From NCBI GenBank assembly GCA_016777565.1, contig JADHRF010000006.1:1-37043 (forward strand): a stretch of DNA of 37,043 nucleotides. Direction: 5' to 3'. Under the pieces are notes generated by a model that worked only from the letters and a program-made list of their open reading frames with translations, ran no database searches and was not told the origin of the DNA. Source of the stretch: Pelagibacteraceae bacterium (GTDB lineage Bacteria; Pseudomonadota; Alphaproteobacteria; Pelagibacterales; Pelagibacteraceae). Position 1 is the stretch's first letter; each line of letters begins with the position of its first letter. The position numbers and the translations under genes were made by a program. Shown piece by piece: positions 2,774-24,990 of the stretch.

Positions 2774-3585
2774 TGTCCTTAGTTACTACAGGGTGGCTTG
2801 AAAAAAATTTGAAAAATGTAAAAATTCTTGATGCTAGTTGGCACATGCCAACTTCTAAAAGAAATGCTCATCAAGAATTTTTAAACAATCATATCCCAGG
2901 AACCCAATTTTTTGACTTGGATAAAAATTCTGATGCAGAAAGTTCATTGCCACATATGTTGCCTTCTAAAAAAAAGTGGCAAGAAATAGTTTCTAATTTT
3001 GGAATTAATAATAACGATATAGTAGTTGTTTATGATAATTCTGATGTTATCAGTTCTTGTAGATCTTGGTATATGTTTGTTTATTTTGGTCATGACTCTA
3101 AAAAAACTTTTGTTTTAGATGGCGGGCTAAAAAAATGGAAACTAGAAAATAGAAAAACTGTTAATCAGCTAGTAACATTTGGTAAAACTAATTATTTAGT
3201 CAAAGAAAATAAAAATCTAGTCAAAAATAAAATACAAATTAATGAAAACATTTCTGCAAATAATTTTCAATTAATTGATGCTCGTGGGAAAAAAAGATTT
3301 GACGGGCTAGAAGATGAACCGCGCGTGGGTTTAAAAAGTGGTCACATTCAAAATTCTTTAAATTTACCTTTTTCCGAATGTATTAATAAATCTGACCATA
3401 CATTCAAATCTAAACAAGAATTATTAAAAATTTTTCAAGGCACAAAAATTTTAAAACAAAAAAACCACGTATTCACTTGTGGTTCAGGTGTCACCGCGTG
3501 CATTTTAGCTATGGCTAATAAAATTGTAGATGATAAAAATCCTGTAATATACGACGGCTCTTGGTCTGAGTATGGACTTAAATAA
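2773..3585 (+). CDS. sseA: 3-mercaptopyruvate / thiosulfate sulfurtransferase (tandem rhodanese)
   Basis: Two rhodanese domains. ILDASWHMPTSKRNAHQEFLNNHIPGTQFFDLD and the active-site loop TCGSGVTACILAMA are present. Confidence 0.9.
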   Translation: MSLVTTGWLEKNLKNVKILDASWHMPTSKRNAHQEFLNNHIPGTQFFDLDKNSDAESSLPHMLPSKKKWQEIVSNFGINNNDIVVVYDNSDVISSCRSWYMFVYFGHDSKKTFVLDGGLKKWKLENRKTVNQLVTFGKTNYLVKENKNLVKNKIQINENISANNFQLIDARGKKRFDGLEDEPRVGLKSGHIQNSLNLPFSECINKSDHTFKSKQELLKIFQGTKILKQKNHVFTCGSGVTACILAMANKIVDDKNPVIYDGSWSEYGLK

Positions 3586-3586
3586 A

Positions 3587-4462
3587 ATGAAAACTTCATT
3601 AAAAATAAAAACTTTTTTAATAATTGTGTTTGTTGTGATTTTTGCTGTTATTGTTGCAAGACACTTCATTGGATTGCATTTTAAAAAAAAATTTAGTGTA
3701 CGGCCTGCACCTGGAGTAATCGTTGCAACTGTTGAAATATCAAACTTTTACAAGAGTATAGAGACATTTGGAACAGCTATCGCTCAAAACTCAAAAACAT
3801 ATAGAGTCAAGAAAGATGATATTATTGGTAACCTAAATCTTGAAAATAGATTTGTAAGAAAAGATGATATTATAGTTGCTTTAAAAAATGATCAAAATAT
3901 TATTGCTGATTTTCAAGGCAAGATTGGTACTAGAGAAATAGCACAAGGAGTTTTGGGTTCTAATAGTTTAATTATTACTCTTGATGATTTAAAGAAAATT
4001 GTAATAGACATTAAAGTTCCAGAAAATTATGTAAATGTATTAAAGAAAGGACTTAAAGCAGAAATATCAAATTCTGCCTTTAACAAAACTTTTAATGGAA
4101 AAATAGAGTCTGTAAGTTCACGTGTGGATCCTTCTACTCGTTCTATCTTAGCAAGAGTTATAGTTGATAATTCTAAATTTGAAATTATTCCTGGCCAATT
4201 AATGACAGTAAAAGTTATTTATGATGAAGTTGAACAATTAGGAGTTCCTGAAAGTTCTATTACCATACAAGGCGATACAGCATTTGTTTATGTCGTTAAC
4301 GACCAAAAAGTCGAAAAGAAGAATGTCAAAATTGGTAAAAGAAATTTTGGTAAAGTTTCGATACTTTCAGGTGTTGCAGAAGGTGATCTAGTAGTAAGTG
4401 AAGGTATTTCAAAAGTAAGAGATAAAGGTAAAGTTAAAATTATTAAACCTAAAAATAATTAA
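3587..4462 (+). CDS. RND efflux periplasmic adaptor (membrane fusion) protein, unusually short
   Basis: N-terminal TM anchor, beta-barrel region (VDIKVPENYVNVLKKGLKAEI...GKIESVSSRVDPSTRSILARVIVDN) and membrane-proximal domain (VPESSITIQGDTAFVYVVNDQKVEKKNVKIG...ILSGVAEGDLVVSEG). It lies immediately upstream of an RND pump. The start could also be 3572. Confidence 0.85.
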   Translation: MKTSLKIKTFLIIVFVVIFAVIVARHFIGLHFKKKFSVRPAPGVIVATVEISNFYKSIETFGTAIAQNSKTYRVKKDDIIGNLNLENRFVRKDDIIVALKNDQNIIADFQGKIGTREIAQGVLGSNSLIITLDDLKKIVIDIKVPENYVNVLKKGLKAEISNSAFNKTFNGKIESVSSRVDPSTRSILARVIVDNSKFEIIPGQLMTVKVIYDEVEQLGVPESSITIQGDTAFVYVVNDQKVEKKNVKIGKRNFGKVSILSGVAEGDLVVSEGISKVRDKGKVKIIKPKNN

Positions 4463-19311: not shown

Positions 19312-19866
19312 ATGGAATTAATAAAAGAATTAAGACAGTCGAAAATAGCTAAAACTGTATTTGTTGCTTTAATTGGTTCAATCCTTTTAGCAATTTCATC
19401 AAAAATCAAAATTCCTTTTTATCCAGTTCCAATGACTATGCAAACTTTAGTGATCCTTCTTTTGGGAGTTACACTCGGTTGGAAATTAGGTCTTGCAACT
19501 GTAACTCTTTATTTGTTTGAAGGTATAATCGGTCTCCCTGTATTCTCAGGTTCACCAGAAAAGGGGATTGGTTTATTTTATTTTACTGGACCTACAATGG
19601 GTTATTTAATTGGTTTTCTTTTTACCGTTTATTTCGCTGGAAGATTTAAATTTGAAGGAAGCTTATTAAAAAAACTTTTACAGTTAATCTTTTCAATAAG
19701 TTTTATATATATATTTGGAATACTTTGGTTGGGAACACTAATTGGTTGGGATAAACCAATTTTTCAATTAGGTGTTCAACCGTTTTTATTTGCAGAATTA
19801 TTTAAAATTTTAATAGTTTTGTTTAGTTTGTCTAAACTAAAAAAACTAAATCGATATTTAAGATAA
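19312..19866 (+). CDS. bioY: Biotin transporter BioY (ECF S component)
   Basis: ISSKIKIPFYPVPMTMQTLVILLLGVTLGWKLGLATVTLYLFEGIIGLPVFSG...GPTMGYLIGF...GVQPFLFAELFKI. Confidence 0.93.
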   Translation: MELIKELRQSKIAKTVFVALIGSILLAISSKIKIPFYPVPMTMQTLVILLLGVTLGWKLGLATVTLYLFEGIIGLPVFSGSPEKGIGLFYFTGPTMGYLIGFLFTVYFAGRFKFEGSLLKKLLQLIFSISFIYIFGILWLGTLIGWDKPIFQLGVQPFLFAELFKILIVLFSLSKLKKLNRYLR

Positions 19867-20439
19867 TTATCTAGGTGATCGCTTAGAAAGAATACGTTGT
19901 AGTGTTCTTCTATGCATTTTAAGTCTTCTTGCAGTCTCAGACACGTTTCTATTACATAATTCAAATACCCGATGAATATGTTCCCACTTAACTCTATCTG
20001 CTGACATAGGGTTCTCTGGTGGTCTAGCTTTTGATTCGGGTAAAGCTAGTAAAGCCGCTTCTACGTCATCTGCATCTACAGGTTTTGCAATATAATCTAT
20101 TGCTCCAGCTTTAACCGCCGCTACAGCTGTGGGTAGATTTCCATAACCAGTTAGCATAACGATACGGCTATCTTTTTTGGACTTATGAAGTGCTTTAACT
20201 ACCTCTAAACCGCTACCATCTTCAAGCCTGAGATCTACAAGAGCAAAATTAGTAGGAGTATTCTCTGCAATTTTAAGGCCTTCTTCAACACTTTTAGCTT
20301 CTTTTACCTGAAAACCCTTTTTTTCCATGGCTCTTGCGAGCCTACCACGGAAAGGATCATCATCATCAAGTATTAATAGGCTCTTGTCCTCAAAATCTGA
20401 AATCTTTAGACTTTTTAAGTCTGTATTTATAGTTTTCAT
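19867..20439 (-). CDS. regA: Response regulator RegA/PrrA/ActR
   Basis: Receiver domain with LVDLRLEDGSGLEVVKAL, and a Fis-type HTH C-terminus SADRVKWEHIHRVFELCNRNVSETARRLKMHRRTLQRILSKRSPR characteristic of RegA. Confidence 0.94.
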   Translation of the reverse strand: MKTINTDLKSLKISDFEDKSLLILDDDDPFRGRLARAMEKKGFQVKEAKSVEEGLKIAENTPTNFALVDLRLEDGSGLEVVKALHKSKKDSRIVMLTGYGNLPTAVAAVKAGAIDYIAKPVDADDVEAALLALPESKARPPENPMSADRVKWEHIHRVFELCNRNVSETARRLKMHRRTLQRILSKRSPR

Positions 20440-20537
20440 TATGAGTCTTATATGGTGATTAAGATAAAATTATCAACCTCATTGAGTTGCATTATTTGCT
20501 TTACATTATTTGAAAAAACTCTAAATAACGAAAGTGT

Positions 20538-20568
20538 AAGGTTTTTTTATAAAATTTTTTAAAACCTT
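20538..20568. promoter_or_regulatory. Inverted repeat AAGGTTTT-N15-AAAACCTT in the 5' leader of the decarboxylase gene (regA/decarboxylase divergent spacer)
   Basis: Perfect 8-bp inverted arms read directly. They lie about 30 nt upstream of the ATG at 20597. Confidence 0.3.
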
Positions 20569-20596
20569 TTGTGAAGATTAAAGAGGGACACATGAG

Positions 20597-21775
20597 ATGC
20601 AGAAATTTAAAAACGTTAGTGAGTTAGTTAACACGTTAAAACCCGATTATCCGGTGTATTGCATACGCCCAAATTCCATTAAAACTTCAACACAATTTTT
20701 TAAAAATAATTTTCCTGGAAAAGTTTTATATGCTGTAAAAACTAACCCTAACGAAGAAGTTTTAAAACATATAATCAATAATAATATAGATAATTTTGAT
20801 GCTGCCTCTATAAATGAGATCTTATTAATAAAAAATTTAAAACCTGATGCGCATATTTATTTTATGCATACTGTAAAAAGTAGAAATGATATCACTGAAG
20901 CTTATTTTAATTTAGGTATTAAAGATTTTGCACTCGACACTAAAGATGAGTTGATTAAAATTCTTGAAGCAACTAATCATGCTAAAGATTTAACGCTGTA
21001 TGTAAGAATAGCTATTTCAAACGAACATGCAGAGATCGATTTGTCTAGAAAATTTGGTGCTCAAGCAAGTGAATCTCTTGGGCTTGTAAGGTTATGTAAA
21101 GAGCATGCTAATAAAGTTGGAATTAGTTTTCATGTGGGATCGCAATGTATGCATAAAATTTCTTTTACTAAGGCGATCAGAGAAGTTGGCAACATAATTA
21201 AAAAAACTAAAATTGTTCCTGATATTATAAATGTTGGAGGTGGATTTCCTTCTGTCTATCCTGATTTAAACCCTGAACCACTCGAAAATTATTTAGATGA
21301 AATTAAAAGATCAATTTCTAATCTTAATTTACCAACAGTCCCTGAATTAATTTGTGAACCTGGCAGAGCTATAGTAGCTGAAAGTGGTTCAACAATAGTA
21401 AAAGTTAATTTAAGAAAAAAACAAAAGCTGTATATTAACGATGGAACATATGGATCATTATTTGATGCAGGAGTTCCTAACTTTATACTTCCTTCAAAAA
21501 TGATTTCAAATGGTAGAGTCCAATCAAAAAAATTAACAGCTTTTAATTTTTACGGGCCAACGTGTGATAGTATGGACTTTATGAGAGGCCCTTTTCTGTT
21601 ACCAAATAATATTAAAGAAGGTGATTATATTGAATTAGGACAACTGGGAGCTTACGGCTTGACCTTTAGAACTAAATTTAATGGCTTCTACTCTGACGAA
21701 ATATTTGAATTGACTGATCAGCCAATTATAAGTCTATATAATGCTTCAAGTAAAGTTAAATACTTGGTTGCTTAA
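20597..21775 (+). CDS. Fold-type III PLP decarboxylase (ornithine/lysine decarboxylase family)
   Basis: VLYAVKTNPNEEVLKHI (PLP Lys), FHVGSQC, EPGRAIVAESG and YGPTCDSMDFM (active-site Cys). Confidence 0.92.
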   Translation: MQKFKNVSELVNTLKPDYPVYCIRPNSIKTSTQFFKNNFPGKVLYAVKTNPNEEVLKHIINNNIDNFDAASINEILLIKNLKPDAHIYFMHTVKSRNDITEAYFNLGIKDFALDTKDELIKILEATNHAKDLTLYVRIAISNEHAEIDLSRKFGAQASESLGLVRLCKEHANKVGISFHVGSQCMHKISFTKAIREVGNIIKKTKIVPDIINVGGGFPSVYPDLNPEPLENYLDEIKRSISNLNLPTVPELICEPGRAIVAESGSTIVKVNLRKKQKLYINDGTYGSLFDAGVPNFILPSKMISNGRVQSKKLTAFNFYGPTCDSMDFMRGPFLLPNNIKEGDYIELGQLGAYGLTFRTKFNGFYSDEIFELTDQPIISLYNASSKVKYLVA

Positions 21776-22821
21776 TGGACAAAAAAAATAATCCTAATAT
21801 AGGACATAATAAAAAATCTCTTCTTAATAATCCTATAGAGCATATTGATATTAAATCATTCGATGCTAGAAAAATTATTGACGGAATGAAAAAAATGTCA
21901 TTCACATCTAGAGATACAGCTAGAGCCGCTGGTATTTATAATGAAATGCTAGCTGACAAAGATTGTTCAATTTTCTTAACGTTAGCTGGATCAACATCTG
22001 CAGGTGGATGTATGGATTTATACACAGATCTTGTTAAACATAACATGGTTGATGCTATTGTAGCTACTGGCGCTTCTATAATTGATATGGATTTTTTTGA
22101 AGCTTTAGGATTTAAACACTATCAAGGGTCTCAATTCCAAGATGATACTGTTCTTAGAGATAACTACATTGATAGAATCTACGATACATATATTGACGAG
22201 GAAGAGCTTCAAGCATGTGATAAATCAATATGTGACATAGCTAATACTCTGGAACCTAGATCTTATACCTCTAGAGAATTTATTAAAGAGCTTGGTAAAT
22301 ATTTGAAGACTAATGGAAAAAAGAAAGGTTCATTGATTGAAACTGCCTATGACAATGATGTTCCAATTTTCTGTCCAGCTTTTACAGATAGTTCGGCAGG
22401 CTTTGGATTGGTGATGCATCAAGAACAAAACCCAAAAAAACATATGACTATAGATTCTATTCGTGAATTTAGAGAACTAACTGAAATCAAACTACAATCT
22501 AAGCAATCTGGTTTATTAATGATTGGAGGTGGTGTTCCAAAAAATTTTGTTCAAGACACTGTTGTTTGTGCTGAATTGTTAGGAAAAAAAGTAGATATGC
22601 ATAAATATGCCGTTCAAATTACAGTTGCTGATACTCGTGATGGAGCTTGTAGTAGTTCAACTTTAAAAGAAGCAAGCTCATGGGGTAAAGTAGACGTAAC
22701 AAAAGAGCAAATGGTATTTGCTGAAGCCACAAGCGTATTGCCTTTAATTGCAAGTGATGCATACCATCGTGAATATTGGAAAAATAGAGAAAGAAAAAAT
22801 TTTTCAAAAATATTTAAATAA
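21775..22821 (+). CDS. Deoxyhypusine synthase-like protein (candidate homospermidine/polyamine synthase)
   Basis: VKHNMVDAIVATGASIIDMDF, VPIFCPAFTDSSAG, LLMIGGGVPKN and EASSWGKV (catalytic-Lys motif). It overlaps the decarboxylase stop (TAATG). Confidence 0.9.
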   Translation: MDKKNNPNIGHNKKSLLNNPIEHIDIKSFDARKIIDGMKKMSFTSRDTARAAGIYNEMLADKDCSIFLTLAGSTSAGGCMDLYTDLVKHNMVDAIVATGASIIDMDFFEALGFKHYQGSQFQDDTVLRDNYIDRIYDTYIDEEELQACDKSICDIANTLEPRSYTSREFIKELGKYLKTNGKKKGSLIETAYDNDVPIFCPAFTDSSAGFGLVMHQEQNPKKHMTIDSIREFRELTEIKLQSKQSGLLMIGGGVPKNFVQDTVVCAELLGKKVDMHKYAVQITVADTRDGACSSSTLKEASSWGKVDVTKEQMVFAEATSVLPLIASDAYHREYWKNRERKNFSKIFK

Positions 22822-22832
22822 AATTTTTAAAA

Positions 22833-23714
22833 ATGAAATATCTTTCAAACAAAAACGGTTTTCTAGGAATTGATAATAAGGTCAATTTTAAAGAGAAAGT
22901 TATTGTTGTTCCCTTCGGCCTTGAAAAAACTGTGAGTTATGGTGGTGGTACCAGAAATGGACCAAAAGAAATTATTAAAGCTTCACACCAAGTAGAGCTT
23001 TTCGATGAGGAATTAAACTATGAGCCTTACAAAAAAATAGGCATTAAAACTTTAAAACCATTTAAAATTGATAAAGACATTAGAAAAGCTCTAAAAAAAA
23101 TGTCAGATATAAATAAAGAAATTTTAGATAAAAAACTTTTTCCAATGACTTTTGGTGGTGAACATTCCATCACTCCTGCATGTATTGCTCCGTTTGTAAA
23201 AAAACATAAAAAAATTTGCTTATTACATTTCGATGCTCATGCGGATTTAAGAGAAAGTTACAATGGTGAAAAATTTTCACATGCATCAGCTATTAAAAGA
23301 TGTCTGGATTATAAAAATGTTTCTATTATTTCTTTTGGAATTAGAAATATTTCCGAAAGTGAAATACCTGTTTTAAAAAAAAATAAAGCGAGAATTAATA
23401 TTTTCTGGGCTAAAGACAAGTTAAAATGGGACTTAAAAAAATTTACAAAAATGATAAAAAATAAAACTGTTTATTTAACTTTTGATGTTGATGGTCTAGA
23501 TTCCGGTATAATGCCAGCAACAGGAACTCCTGAACCAGGAGGATTACTGTGGGATGAAACTTTAAATATCATTAAAATTGCAGCAAAAAATTCAAATATT
23601 GTTGGGGCTGATATTAATGAGTTATCGCCAATCAAAGGTTTTAATTCTTATAATTTCTTGGTAGCAAAACTCGCTTATAAAATACTTTCTTATACTTTTA
23701 GATTTAAGCGTTAG
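22833..23714 (+). CDS. speB: Agmatinase/arginase-family ureohydrolase
   Basis: Metal-binding motifs FGGEHSIT, LLHFDAHADLRESYNGEKFSHASAIKR and LTFDVDGLDSGIMPATGTPEPGGL. Confidence 0.9.
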   Translation: MKYLSNKNGFLGIDNKVNFKEKVIVVPFGLEKTVSYGGGTRNGPKEIIKASHQVELFDEELNYEPYKKIGIKTLKPFKIDKDIRKALKKMSDINKEILDKKLFPMTFGGEHSITPACIAPFVKKHKKICLLHFDAHADLRESYNGEKFSHASAIKRCLDYKNVSIISFGIRNISESEIPVLKKNKARINIFWAKDKLKWDLKKFTKMIKNKTVYLTFDVDGLDSGIMPATGTPEPGGLLWDETLNIIKIAAKNSNIVGADINELSPIKGFNSYNFLVAKLAYKILSYTFRFKR

Positions 23715-24990
23715 AAAAATCTTTCGGTCTCCAACTAATCAGAACTAGTGCTCCTCCTAATTCTCCATTACTTTTAAATAGTAATTTAGCATTTTTTCTT
23801 TCTAGTAAAGTTTTACCTAAAAATGTTCCTAATCCAAGTCCTGAGTTTGAACTTAATTCTTTTGATCTTGACTTAATATAAGGCTCACCAATTTTTGTTA
23901 ATACATCTTCTGGAATTCCAGGGCCATCATCGTTTATTTTTATTTCAATTTTTTTTTCGTCACTTCTTAATGTAATTTCAACTCTACTTTTAGAAAACTT
24001 TACTGCGTTTCCTATAAAATTTCTTAGACCATAAACTAATTCTGGTGCTCGTTTAATATTAATCTTATTTTTATCTTCACCAGATATTAAATTTATCTTT
24101 ACATCGGAAGTTTCTTTAAATGAAATAATAATTTCCTCTAATAAATCTTCTACTTTTACTATGTTGATGAATTGATCATCCTCTATTTCTTTTCTAGAAA
24201 TTTGACGTAAGATTTCACTACACCTTTTAGATTGGCTAACTAATAGTTCAAGATCTTTAGCGTGTTTTGATTTATCTCCGATTTCTTTTTTCAATTCTTT
24301 TGCGACCACTGAAATAGTAGCTAGAGGAGTTCCTAACGAGTGAGCTGCAGCGGCTGCTAAACCTCCTAAAGAATCTAGTTGATATTCTCTTGCCATTACT
24401 TGCTGAAGTTTTTCTAAAGCTTCTGACCTTTTTTTGGTTTCTCCTGAAAATCTTATTCCAAAATAACTTAAAAAAATAAGTCCGATAATTATAGAAATTA
24501 AAATTCCTTCTAAATAATATTCTGGAAAACTAAATCGGTATGCATCTAGACCAGGTAAAATTTCATGAAAATTTTTTAAAATGAATAACGAGATTATAGT
24601 TAGCGTTCCCAAAATTATAGTGGTACCCATACTAAGAAAAGTTGAAGAAACTATTGTGGGCACAATCATAAGAAAGGAGAATGGATTTGAAATTCCACCT
24701 GTTAAATAAAGCAAAAATGTTAATTGAAATAAATCATAAATGAGAAAAAATCCAGAATACAAATCTTTTAATTGATTCTCTTTTATCTTGAATTGTAAAA
24801 TTAAATTTGTAATTAATCCTACTGAGACAATGGCGTGTACAGCAACTATAGGAAGTTCTAGTTTTAAATAATAGTAGACAAAATTTATAGCAATGAGTTG
24901 ACCTATGATAGCAATCCATCTTAATGCAACTAAAGTTTTTTTATCTAAATGGAGGTTTTCTTCTAGTCTAAATAGAGTAGAAAAATTCAT
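23704..24990 (-). CDS. regB: Sensor histidine kinase RegB/PrrB/ActS
   Basis: Six-TM N-terminus with GGISNPF (GGxxNPF quinone motif), H-box GGLAAAAAHSLGTPLATISVVAKEL, SQSKRCSEILRQIS (redox Cys region) and GLGLGTFLGKTLLER. Confidence 0.94.
   Translation of the reverse strand: MNFSTLFRLEENLHLDKKTLVALRWIAIIGQLIAINFVYYYLKLELPIVAVHAIVSVGLITNLILQFKIKENQLKDLYSGFFLIYDLFQLTFLLYLTGGISNPFSFLMIVPTIVSSTFLSMGTTIILGTLTIISLFILKNFHEILPGLDAYRFSFPEYYLEGILISIIIGLIFLSYFGIRFSGETKKRSEALEKLQQVMAREYQLDSLGGLAAAAAHSLGTPLATISVVAKELKKEIGDKSKHAKDLELLVSQSKRCSEILRQISRKEIEDDQFINIVKVEDLLEEIIISFKETSDVKINLISGEDKNKINIKRAPELVYGLRNFIGNAVKFSKSRVEITLRSDEKKIEIKINDDGPGIPEDVLTKIGEPYIKSRSKELSSNSGLGLGTFLGKTLLERKNAKLLFKSNGELGGALVLISWRPKDFSNA

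Follow-up and report, generated by a model that had tools for sequence, protein, structure and literature searches.

Gene organization of the locus

The window, that is, the whole stretch of 37,043 nucleotides analysed here from a SAR11 genome of the family Pelagibacteraceae, contains three tightly linked genes for a decarboxylase, a deoxyhypusine-synthase (DHS) homologue and a ureohydrolase (Table 1). The first two genes overlap by one nucleotide (...gcTTAATGgac..., with the stop codon TAA at 21773-21775 and the ATG starting at 21775), and a gap of 11 nucleotides (22822-22832) separates the DHS gene from the ureohydrolase gene. The coordinates, the plus strand, the TAATG overlap and the gap given in the initial annotation were all borne out by the open reading frames and the Pfam matches. 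Since the order of the decarboxylase and DHS genes recurs in every SAR11 locus examined (see below), the three-gene arrangement is not a matter of chance.

In the window the cassette splits apart the genes for the RegA/PrrA response regulator and the RegB/PrrB histidine kinase. Many further SAR11 loci keep a regA-like gene upstream of the cassette and vary in the downstream neighbour. An Rfam search found no riboswitch or other element upstream of the operon, and promoter-like consensus sites in this region were no commoner than in shuffled sequence.

Table 1. Features of the cassette and its flanks (positions in the window)
Feature	Position	Strand	Remarks
BioY-like biotin transporter component	19312-19866	+	Upstream of the cassette, adjoining an ABC transporter ATPase; identified by eye, no NCBIfam match
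regA (RegA/PrrA response regulator)	19867-20439	minus	NCBIfam
Spacer between the divergent regA gene and operon, presumed to hold the promoter	20440-20596	.	157 bp; no Rfam match
Alanine-racemase-fold (type III) PLP decarboxylase (gene 1)	20597-21775	+	392 aa; PF02784, E = 2e-34; PF00278, E = 1.5e-7
DHS homologue, caldomycin-synthase/SpeY-type coupling enzyme (gene 2)	21775-22821	+	348 aa; PF01916, E = 6e-97; NF002699; proposed catalytic Lys305
Agmatinase-family ureohydrolase (gene 3)	22833-23714	+	293 aa; PF00491, E = 2e-58; TIGR01230
regB (RegB/PrrB histidine kinase)	23704-24990	minus	NCBIfam; convergent 11-bp overlap with the ureohydrolase gene

The decarboxylase

The product of gene 1 reached the cutoff of no NCBIfam equivalog (best match lysA, 139.8 bits against a cutoff of 297.9), and its relatives of known structure are the lysine/ornithine decarboxylase 5gjm and the chlorovirus arginine decarboxylase 2nv9. 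It is 61-77% identical to the decarboxylases of other SAR11 loci, and a comparison of families and loci showed that it fits the Group IV AR-fold decarboxylase of SAR11 that adjoins DHS. The specificity-helix region (INDGTYGSLFDAG) is common to SAR11 and nearly so to the relatives adjoining DHS, and the window protein has the LFDA helix motif in common with all examined homologues adjoining DHS. The protein is without the YDH acid of the lysine/ornithine decarboxylase, and the residue aligned to the specificity-helix Asp is non-acidic. Two SAR11 homologues named as ODCs, from Pelagibacter and Fonsibacter, decarboxylated arginine and were inactive on ornithine and lysine (PMC9992855); gene 1 occupies the same cluster position as these two.

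Gene 1 is most likely an ODC-derived L-arginine decarboxylase (ADC) making agmatine, and the diamine-forming activity first assigned to it probably has to be given up in view of the arginine-only homologues. The only other PF02784 protein encoded in the genome is LysA, located beside an argH-like ORF, so that gene 1 is left as the sole PF02784 candidate for agmatine or putrescine formation. We consider it highly improbable that gene 1 acts on ornithine or lysine to yield putrescine or cadaverine and that the DHS homologue then moves an aminobutyl group to a guanidino acceptor such as aminopropylagmatine. The homology of gene 1 to lysine/ornithine decarboxylases would fit this scheme, but the substrate range of the two assayed homologues, the non-acidic residue in the specificity helix and the shared LFDA motif speak against it, as does the generic nature of the ureohydrolase motif that had pointed to a guanidino acceptor (see below).

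The deoxyhypusine-synthase homologue

The DHS homologue scored 579.8 bits against NF002699, the equivalog of caldomycin synthase (CdmS; cutoff 500), and all 62 of the 62 SAR11 homologues exceeded the same cutoff. It stayed below the cutoff of every deoxyhypusine synthase equivalog, TIGR00321 and related models (229.9 against 304.25, 296.7 against 434 and 240 against 364 bits, and others too), which upholds the earlier suggestion that it is not a hypusine enzyme. Its score against NF001980, the 'homospermidine biosynthesis protein', was 185.4 bits with a cutoff of 450, a value that tests the NCBIfam model and not putrescine use as such.

The protein shares the PF01916 fold family with the human/eukaryotic and archaeal deoxyhypusine synthases (PDB 1rlz, 8put, 7cmc) and retains the equivalents of the catalytic Lys, Glu323 and Trp327. 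In an alignment on the human enzyme, however, where human positions 243, 316, 288, 323 and 329 correspond to F210, C292, N257, E299 and K305 of the window protein, human Asp243, Asp316 and His288 are replaced by Phe, Cys and Asn. Two of these, Asp243 and Asp316, are the acidic residues by which human DHS is distinguished from CdmS.

CdmS of Thermus thermophilus (TTHA1570) couples two agmatines and ignores putrescine and spermidine, and the ureohydrolase TtSpeBap then yields homospermidine (Sci Rep 2024, PMC10981699). By the published residue numbers and motif, with a constant offset of +6 in place of a direct alignment, S67, E136, D143, F204, E293 and K299 of CdmS correspond to S73, E142, D149, F210, E299 and K305 of the window protein, and thus six of seven pocket residues match, the seventh being L286 in CdmS and C292 here. 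By this mapping, the pairs S73 and E299 and E142 and D149, whose CdmS counterparts are proposed to grip the two guanidino groups, are retained in the window protein together with the catalytic Lys. As in Thermus, a DHS homologue of the CdmS equivalog is paired with an agmatinase-family ureohydrolase; the two systems differ in that the SAR11 operon unites all the genes, an ODC-derived ADC among them, in Cys292 for Leu286, and in that SAR11 is a mesophile with a predicted coupling activity.

Note that the same pocket residues occur in homologues of uncharacterised substrate from sphingomonads and other alphaproteobacteria, and they are therefore no proof of substrate choice. They are also invariant at SAR11 loci with either kind of downstream module described below, so we rejected them as a means of telling the agmatinase type of locus from the NCPAH/AIH type.

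No phage copies of DHS were found. A plasmid of Trichormus (Anabaena) variabilis (NC_007410.1) carries a full CdmS-family DHS gene (185910-186953, locus L190; 591.8 bits) adjoining a gene annotated as rocD, and a short DHS fragment at 159456-159581; besides these two, a search of the plasmid found no SpeY.

The ureohydrolase

The product of gene 3 exceeded the cutoff of the agmatinase model TIGR01230 (198.1 against 174.3 bits) and fell far below that of the subfamily NF002564 (121.6 against 302 bits). Its metal-ligand positions (H111, D134, H136, D138, D218, D220 and E263) are invariant among 76 homologues, and the binuclear metal site is intact. We propose that it may strip urea from a bis-guanidino triamine, from agmatine, or from both.

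The initial annotation had read a GTGTPEPGGL motif in this protein as a sign of an (aminopropyl)agmatinase. The actual motif is ATGTPEPGGL, and TGTPEP occurs also in the ordinary agmatinase-family structure 3lhl, with a similar motif in 3pzl; we therefore rejected this motif as an indicator of aminopropylagmatinase. A guanidino-containing substrate or product, which had been suggested on the strength of this motif, is plausible all the same.

A second PF00491 agmatinase-family protein is encoded on contig 64 of the same genome. It exceeds both agmatinase cutoffs, its closest structures are guanidinopropionase and guanidinobutyrase, and it could serve ordinary agmatine turnover.

Distribution and exchange of the downstream module

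The search across SAR11 genomes for the three-gene neighbourhood, which had been proposed with the initial annotation, showed a conserved ADC-DHS pair with a variable third position. DHS of the NF002699 type was found in 62 of the 64 genomes of the window's family and in none of the 54 of the sister family (118 genomes of the order); in the latter (f2, G002-G105) no DHS homologue and no credible speE were detected. A genome scan gave 80 homologous loci, nearly all proteobacterial; Pelagibacteraceae, Pelagibacterales and Fonsibacter are the named organisms whose loci resemble the window's, which places the window in SAR11. At all SAR11 loci examined ADC comes first and DHS second; next, where the contig continues, there is either an agmatinase-family gene or a gene for NCPAH and then one for AIH, and the two modules were never seen together at one of these loci. 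At locus L043 the best NCBIfam matches of NCPAH and AIH are N-carbamoylputrescine amidase and agmatine deiminase, both below cutoff.

The choice of the downstream module, compared over loci L040-L075 and L109-L188, requires ten changes on a tree of ADC and DHS, at least eight of them forced by well-supported branches (a quick tree of 61 SAR11 loci and four outgroup rows, the latter being the flagged long branches). The switch is found even within the genus of the window (genomes G094, G038, G114 and G070 as against G000, the window genome, with G034, G107 and G109). This repeated exchange of agmatinase and NCPAH plus AIH beside an unchanged coupling enzyme constitutes a natural test of the order of the steps.

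The cassette itself is already published for the same lineage: the SAR11 cluster was drawn as ADC, DHS/SpeY and agmatinase, or with AIH/NCPAH in a sister lineage (PNAS 2023, PMC9992855), and the clusters of 'Ca. Pelagibacter ubique' and 'Ca. Fonsibacter ubiquis' in that study agree with the window in lineage and gene content, the Pelagibacter form having the agmatinase-type gene. They come from other SAR11 genomes, and the DHS homologue was there called a putrescine-coupling SpeY, whereas the score and the residues given above favour agmatine coupling. An alphaproteobacterial relative has been proposed in Zymomonas mobilis (mSystems 2021, PMC8594446), where a type III decarboxylase gene and a DHS-like gene are likewise adjacent (ZMO1020-ZMO1019) and would make sym-homospermidine from arginine; unlike in the window, AIH/NCPAH (ZMO1369/1370) lie in another operon, and the description includes no ureohydrolase gene next to the pair. 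The switching between agmatinase and NCPAH plus AIH about ten times beside the conserved ADC-DHS pair, over 61 SAR11 loci, is new; neither a count of these switches nor the CdmS reading of the SAR11 DHS was found in the open-access papers searched.

Several loci showed variant arrangements. An extra ORF of about 260 aa lies between the DHS and agmatinase genes at locus L061, and locus L136 possibly has a gap of similar size, as the agmatinase starts about 830 bp past the end of DHS. The order ADC-DHS-agmatinase is also present in a Coxiella endosymbiont of the tick Dermacentor marginatus and in a Rickettsiella MAG (L153, L117), with DHS 69-71% identical, which suggests transfer of the cassette into gammaproteobacterial endosymbionts. 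A record titled Candidatus Micrarchaeota (L187) has a proteobacterial-type DHS 71% identical to that of the window, and this contig is probably mis-binned.

Proposed pathway

The operon very probably makes homospermidine from arginine; the initial view of a polyamine cassette holds, as does, probably, that of a homospermidine-type product. For the order of the steps we favour, with a probability of about 0.6, coupling of agmatine followed by removal of the guanidino groups, as in Thermus, because of the family score and the pocket residues of the DHS homologue. The PLP decarboxylase would convert L-arginine into agmatine, as shown for close SAR11 homologues. The DHS homologue, as a CdmS-type enzyme, would oxidise one agmatine by its bound NAD, bind the resulting 4-guanidinobutyl moiety to Lys305 as an imine (a mechanism taken from the DHS family), and transfer it, with reduction, onto the amino group of another agmatine, giving 1,9-bis(guanidino)-5-azanonane and ammonia. 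The ureohydrolase, whose gene follows the DHS gene as the Thermus pathway requires, would then take off both guanidino groups as urea to leave homospermidine. The coupling and the guanidine removal are demonstrated in Thermus relatives, and we infer them here. The ureohydrolase may also turn some agmatine into putrescine for a SpeD-SpeE fusion encoded elsewhere in the genome.

In the reverse order, agmatine from the ADC would be converted into putrescine, by the agmatinase here and by AIH plus NCPAH elsewhere in SAR11, and the DHS homologue, as SpeY, would join two putrescines. The SAR11 cluster was so assigned in Fig. 2 of the PNAS study (PMC9992855), a like order was put forward for the ADC-DHS operon of Zymomonas with AIH/NCPAH (PMC8594446), and the roughly ten interchanges downstream of an unchanged DHS favour guanidine removal before coupling, since what is exchanged are the two classical means of turning agmatine into putrescine. 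However, the DHS homologue falls in an equivalog whose characterised Thermus member used agmatine only and not putrescine, and at neither of the two positions where human DHS, unlike CdmS, carries an acid does the window protein have one. We regard prior guanidine removal as possible though somewhat unlikely.

Physiological data do not point one way. Homospermidine occurs natively in strain HTCC1062, which also has low agmatine, but HTCC7211 has no native homospermidine, a point against the favoured pathway, and dys2 was judged not primarily a homospermidine synthase by the authors of that mBio study (PMC8437039); with the compound present in one strain and not in the other, and with guanidino triamines outside the compounds measured, the evidence is ambiguous. 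No enzyme assay of any SAR11 DHS was found in the open-access literature. The same study considered dys2 as a candidate for the use of imported spermidine and norspermidine, which SAR11 takes up and uses without known catabolic genes. That the DHS homologue mainly rearranges or degrades these compounds by aminobutyl or aminopropyl transfer is very unlikely, because addition of spermidine caused no significant rise of homospermidine in either strain (PMC8437039), the DHS gene is firmly tied to that of a biosynthetic arginine decarboxylase within one operon, and spermidine is not a substrate of CdmS (PMC10981699).

It is also conceivable, but unlikely, that caldomycin, a bis-guanidino triamine, is an obligatory intermediate in SAR11, and that AIH plus NCPAH strip its guanidino groups where they replace the agmatinase or that guanidino polyamines stay in the cell. 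We found no description of AIH and NCPAH acting on caldomycin in the open-access literature. If caldomycin were an intermediate, the SAR11 polyamine surveys consulted here would have missed guanidino compounds, which would explain why dys2 appeared 'not primarily' a homospermidine synthase. Few cell types in the ocean are as abundant as SAR11, and polyamines contribute notably to its nitrogen economy; the identity of its triamine enzyme and the existence of a guanidino intermediate decide what mass-spectrometry surveys should seek and whether the NF002699 annotation can be trusted outside Thermus.

Other routes to triamines

No speD or speE is present in the window, as had been stated, but a fused SpeD-SpeE is encoded by a single ORF on contig 7 of the same genome (about 3349-4416, minus strand), with a SpeD part over the cutoff (94.3 bits) and a SpeE-like domain. 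The ORF (L076) has 355 codons between stops, and ORFs resembling MTA phosphorylase and methylthioribose-1-phosphate isomerase were seen by eye a few genes away. In Escherichia coli, the corresponding SpeD-SpeE fusions from HTCC1062 and HTCC7211 yield spermidine, spermine and thermospermine (PMC11107197). The initial annotation had reckoned that a complete spermidine pathway in the same genome might leave the cassette redundant and non-conserved. The genome does encode a fusion of the spermidine-making type, but the cassette is still conserved and is thus not redundant. Side-by-side SpeD and SpeE matches were found in 59 of the 64 genomes of the family. Both genomes of one genus (g4) are without SpeD-SpeE and retain the cassette, which may therefore be their only triamine route.

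PF03435 proteins of the sister family without DHS were considered as homospermidine or carboxyspermidine synthases and rejected, as the two types look, by eye from sequence and neighbours, like general saccharopine-dehydrogenase-like oxidoreductases. In genus g8 of this family SpeD occurs alone, as a protein of about 130 aa with no SpeE, and resembles the SpeD-derived ADC/ODC enzymes described in other organisms.
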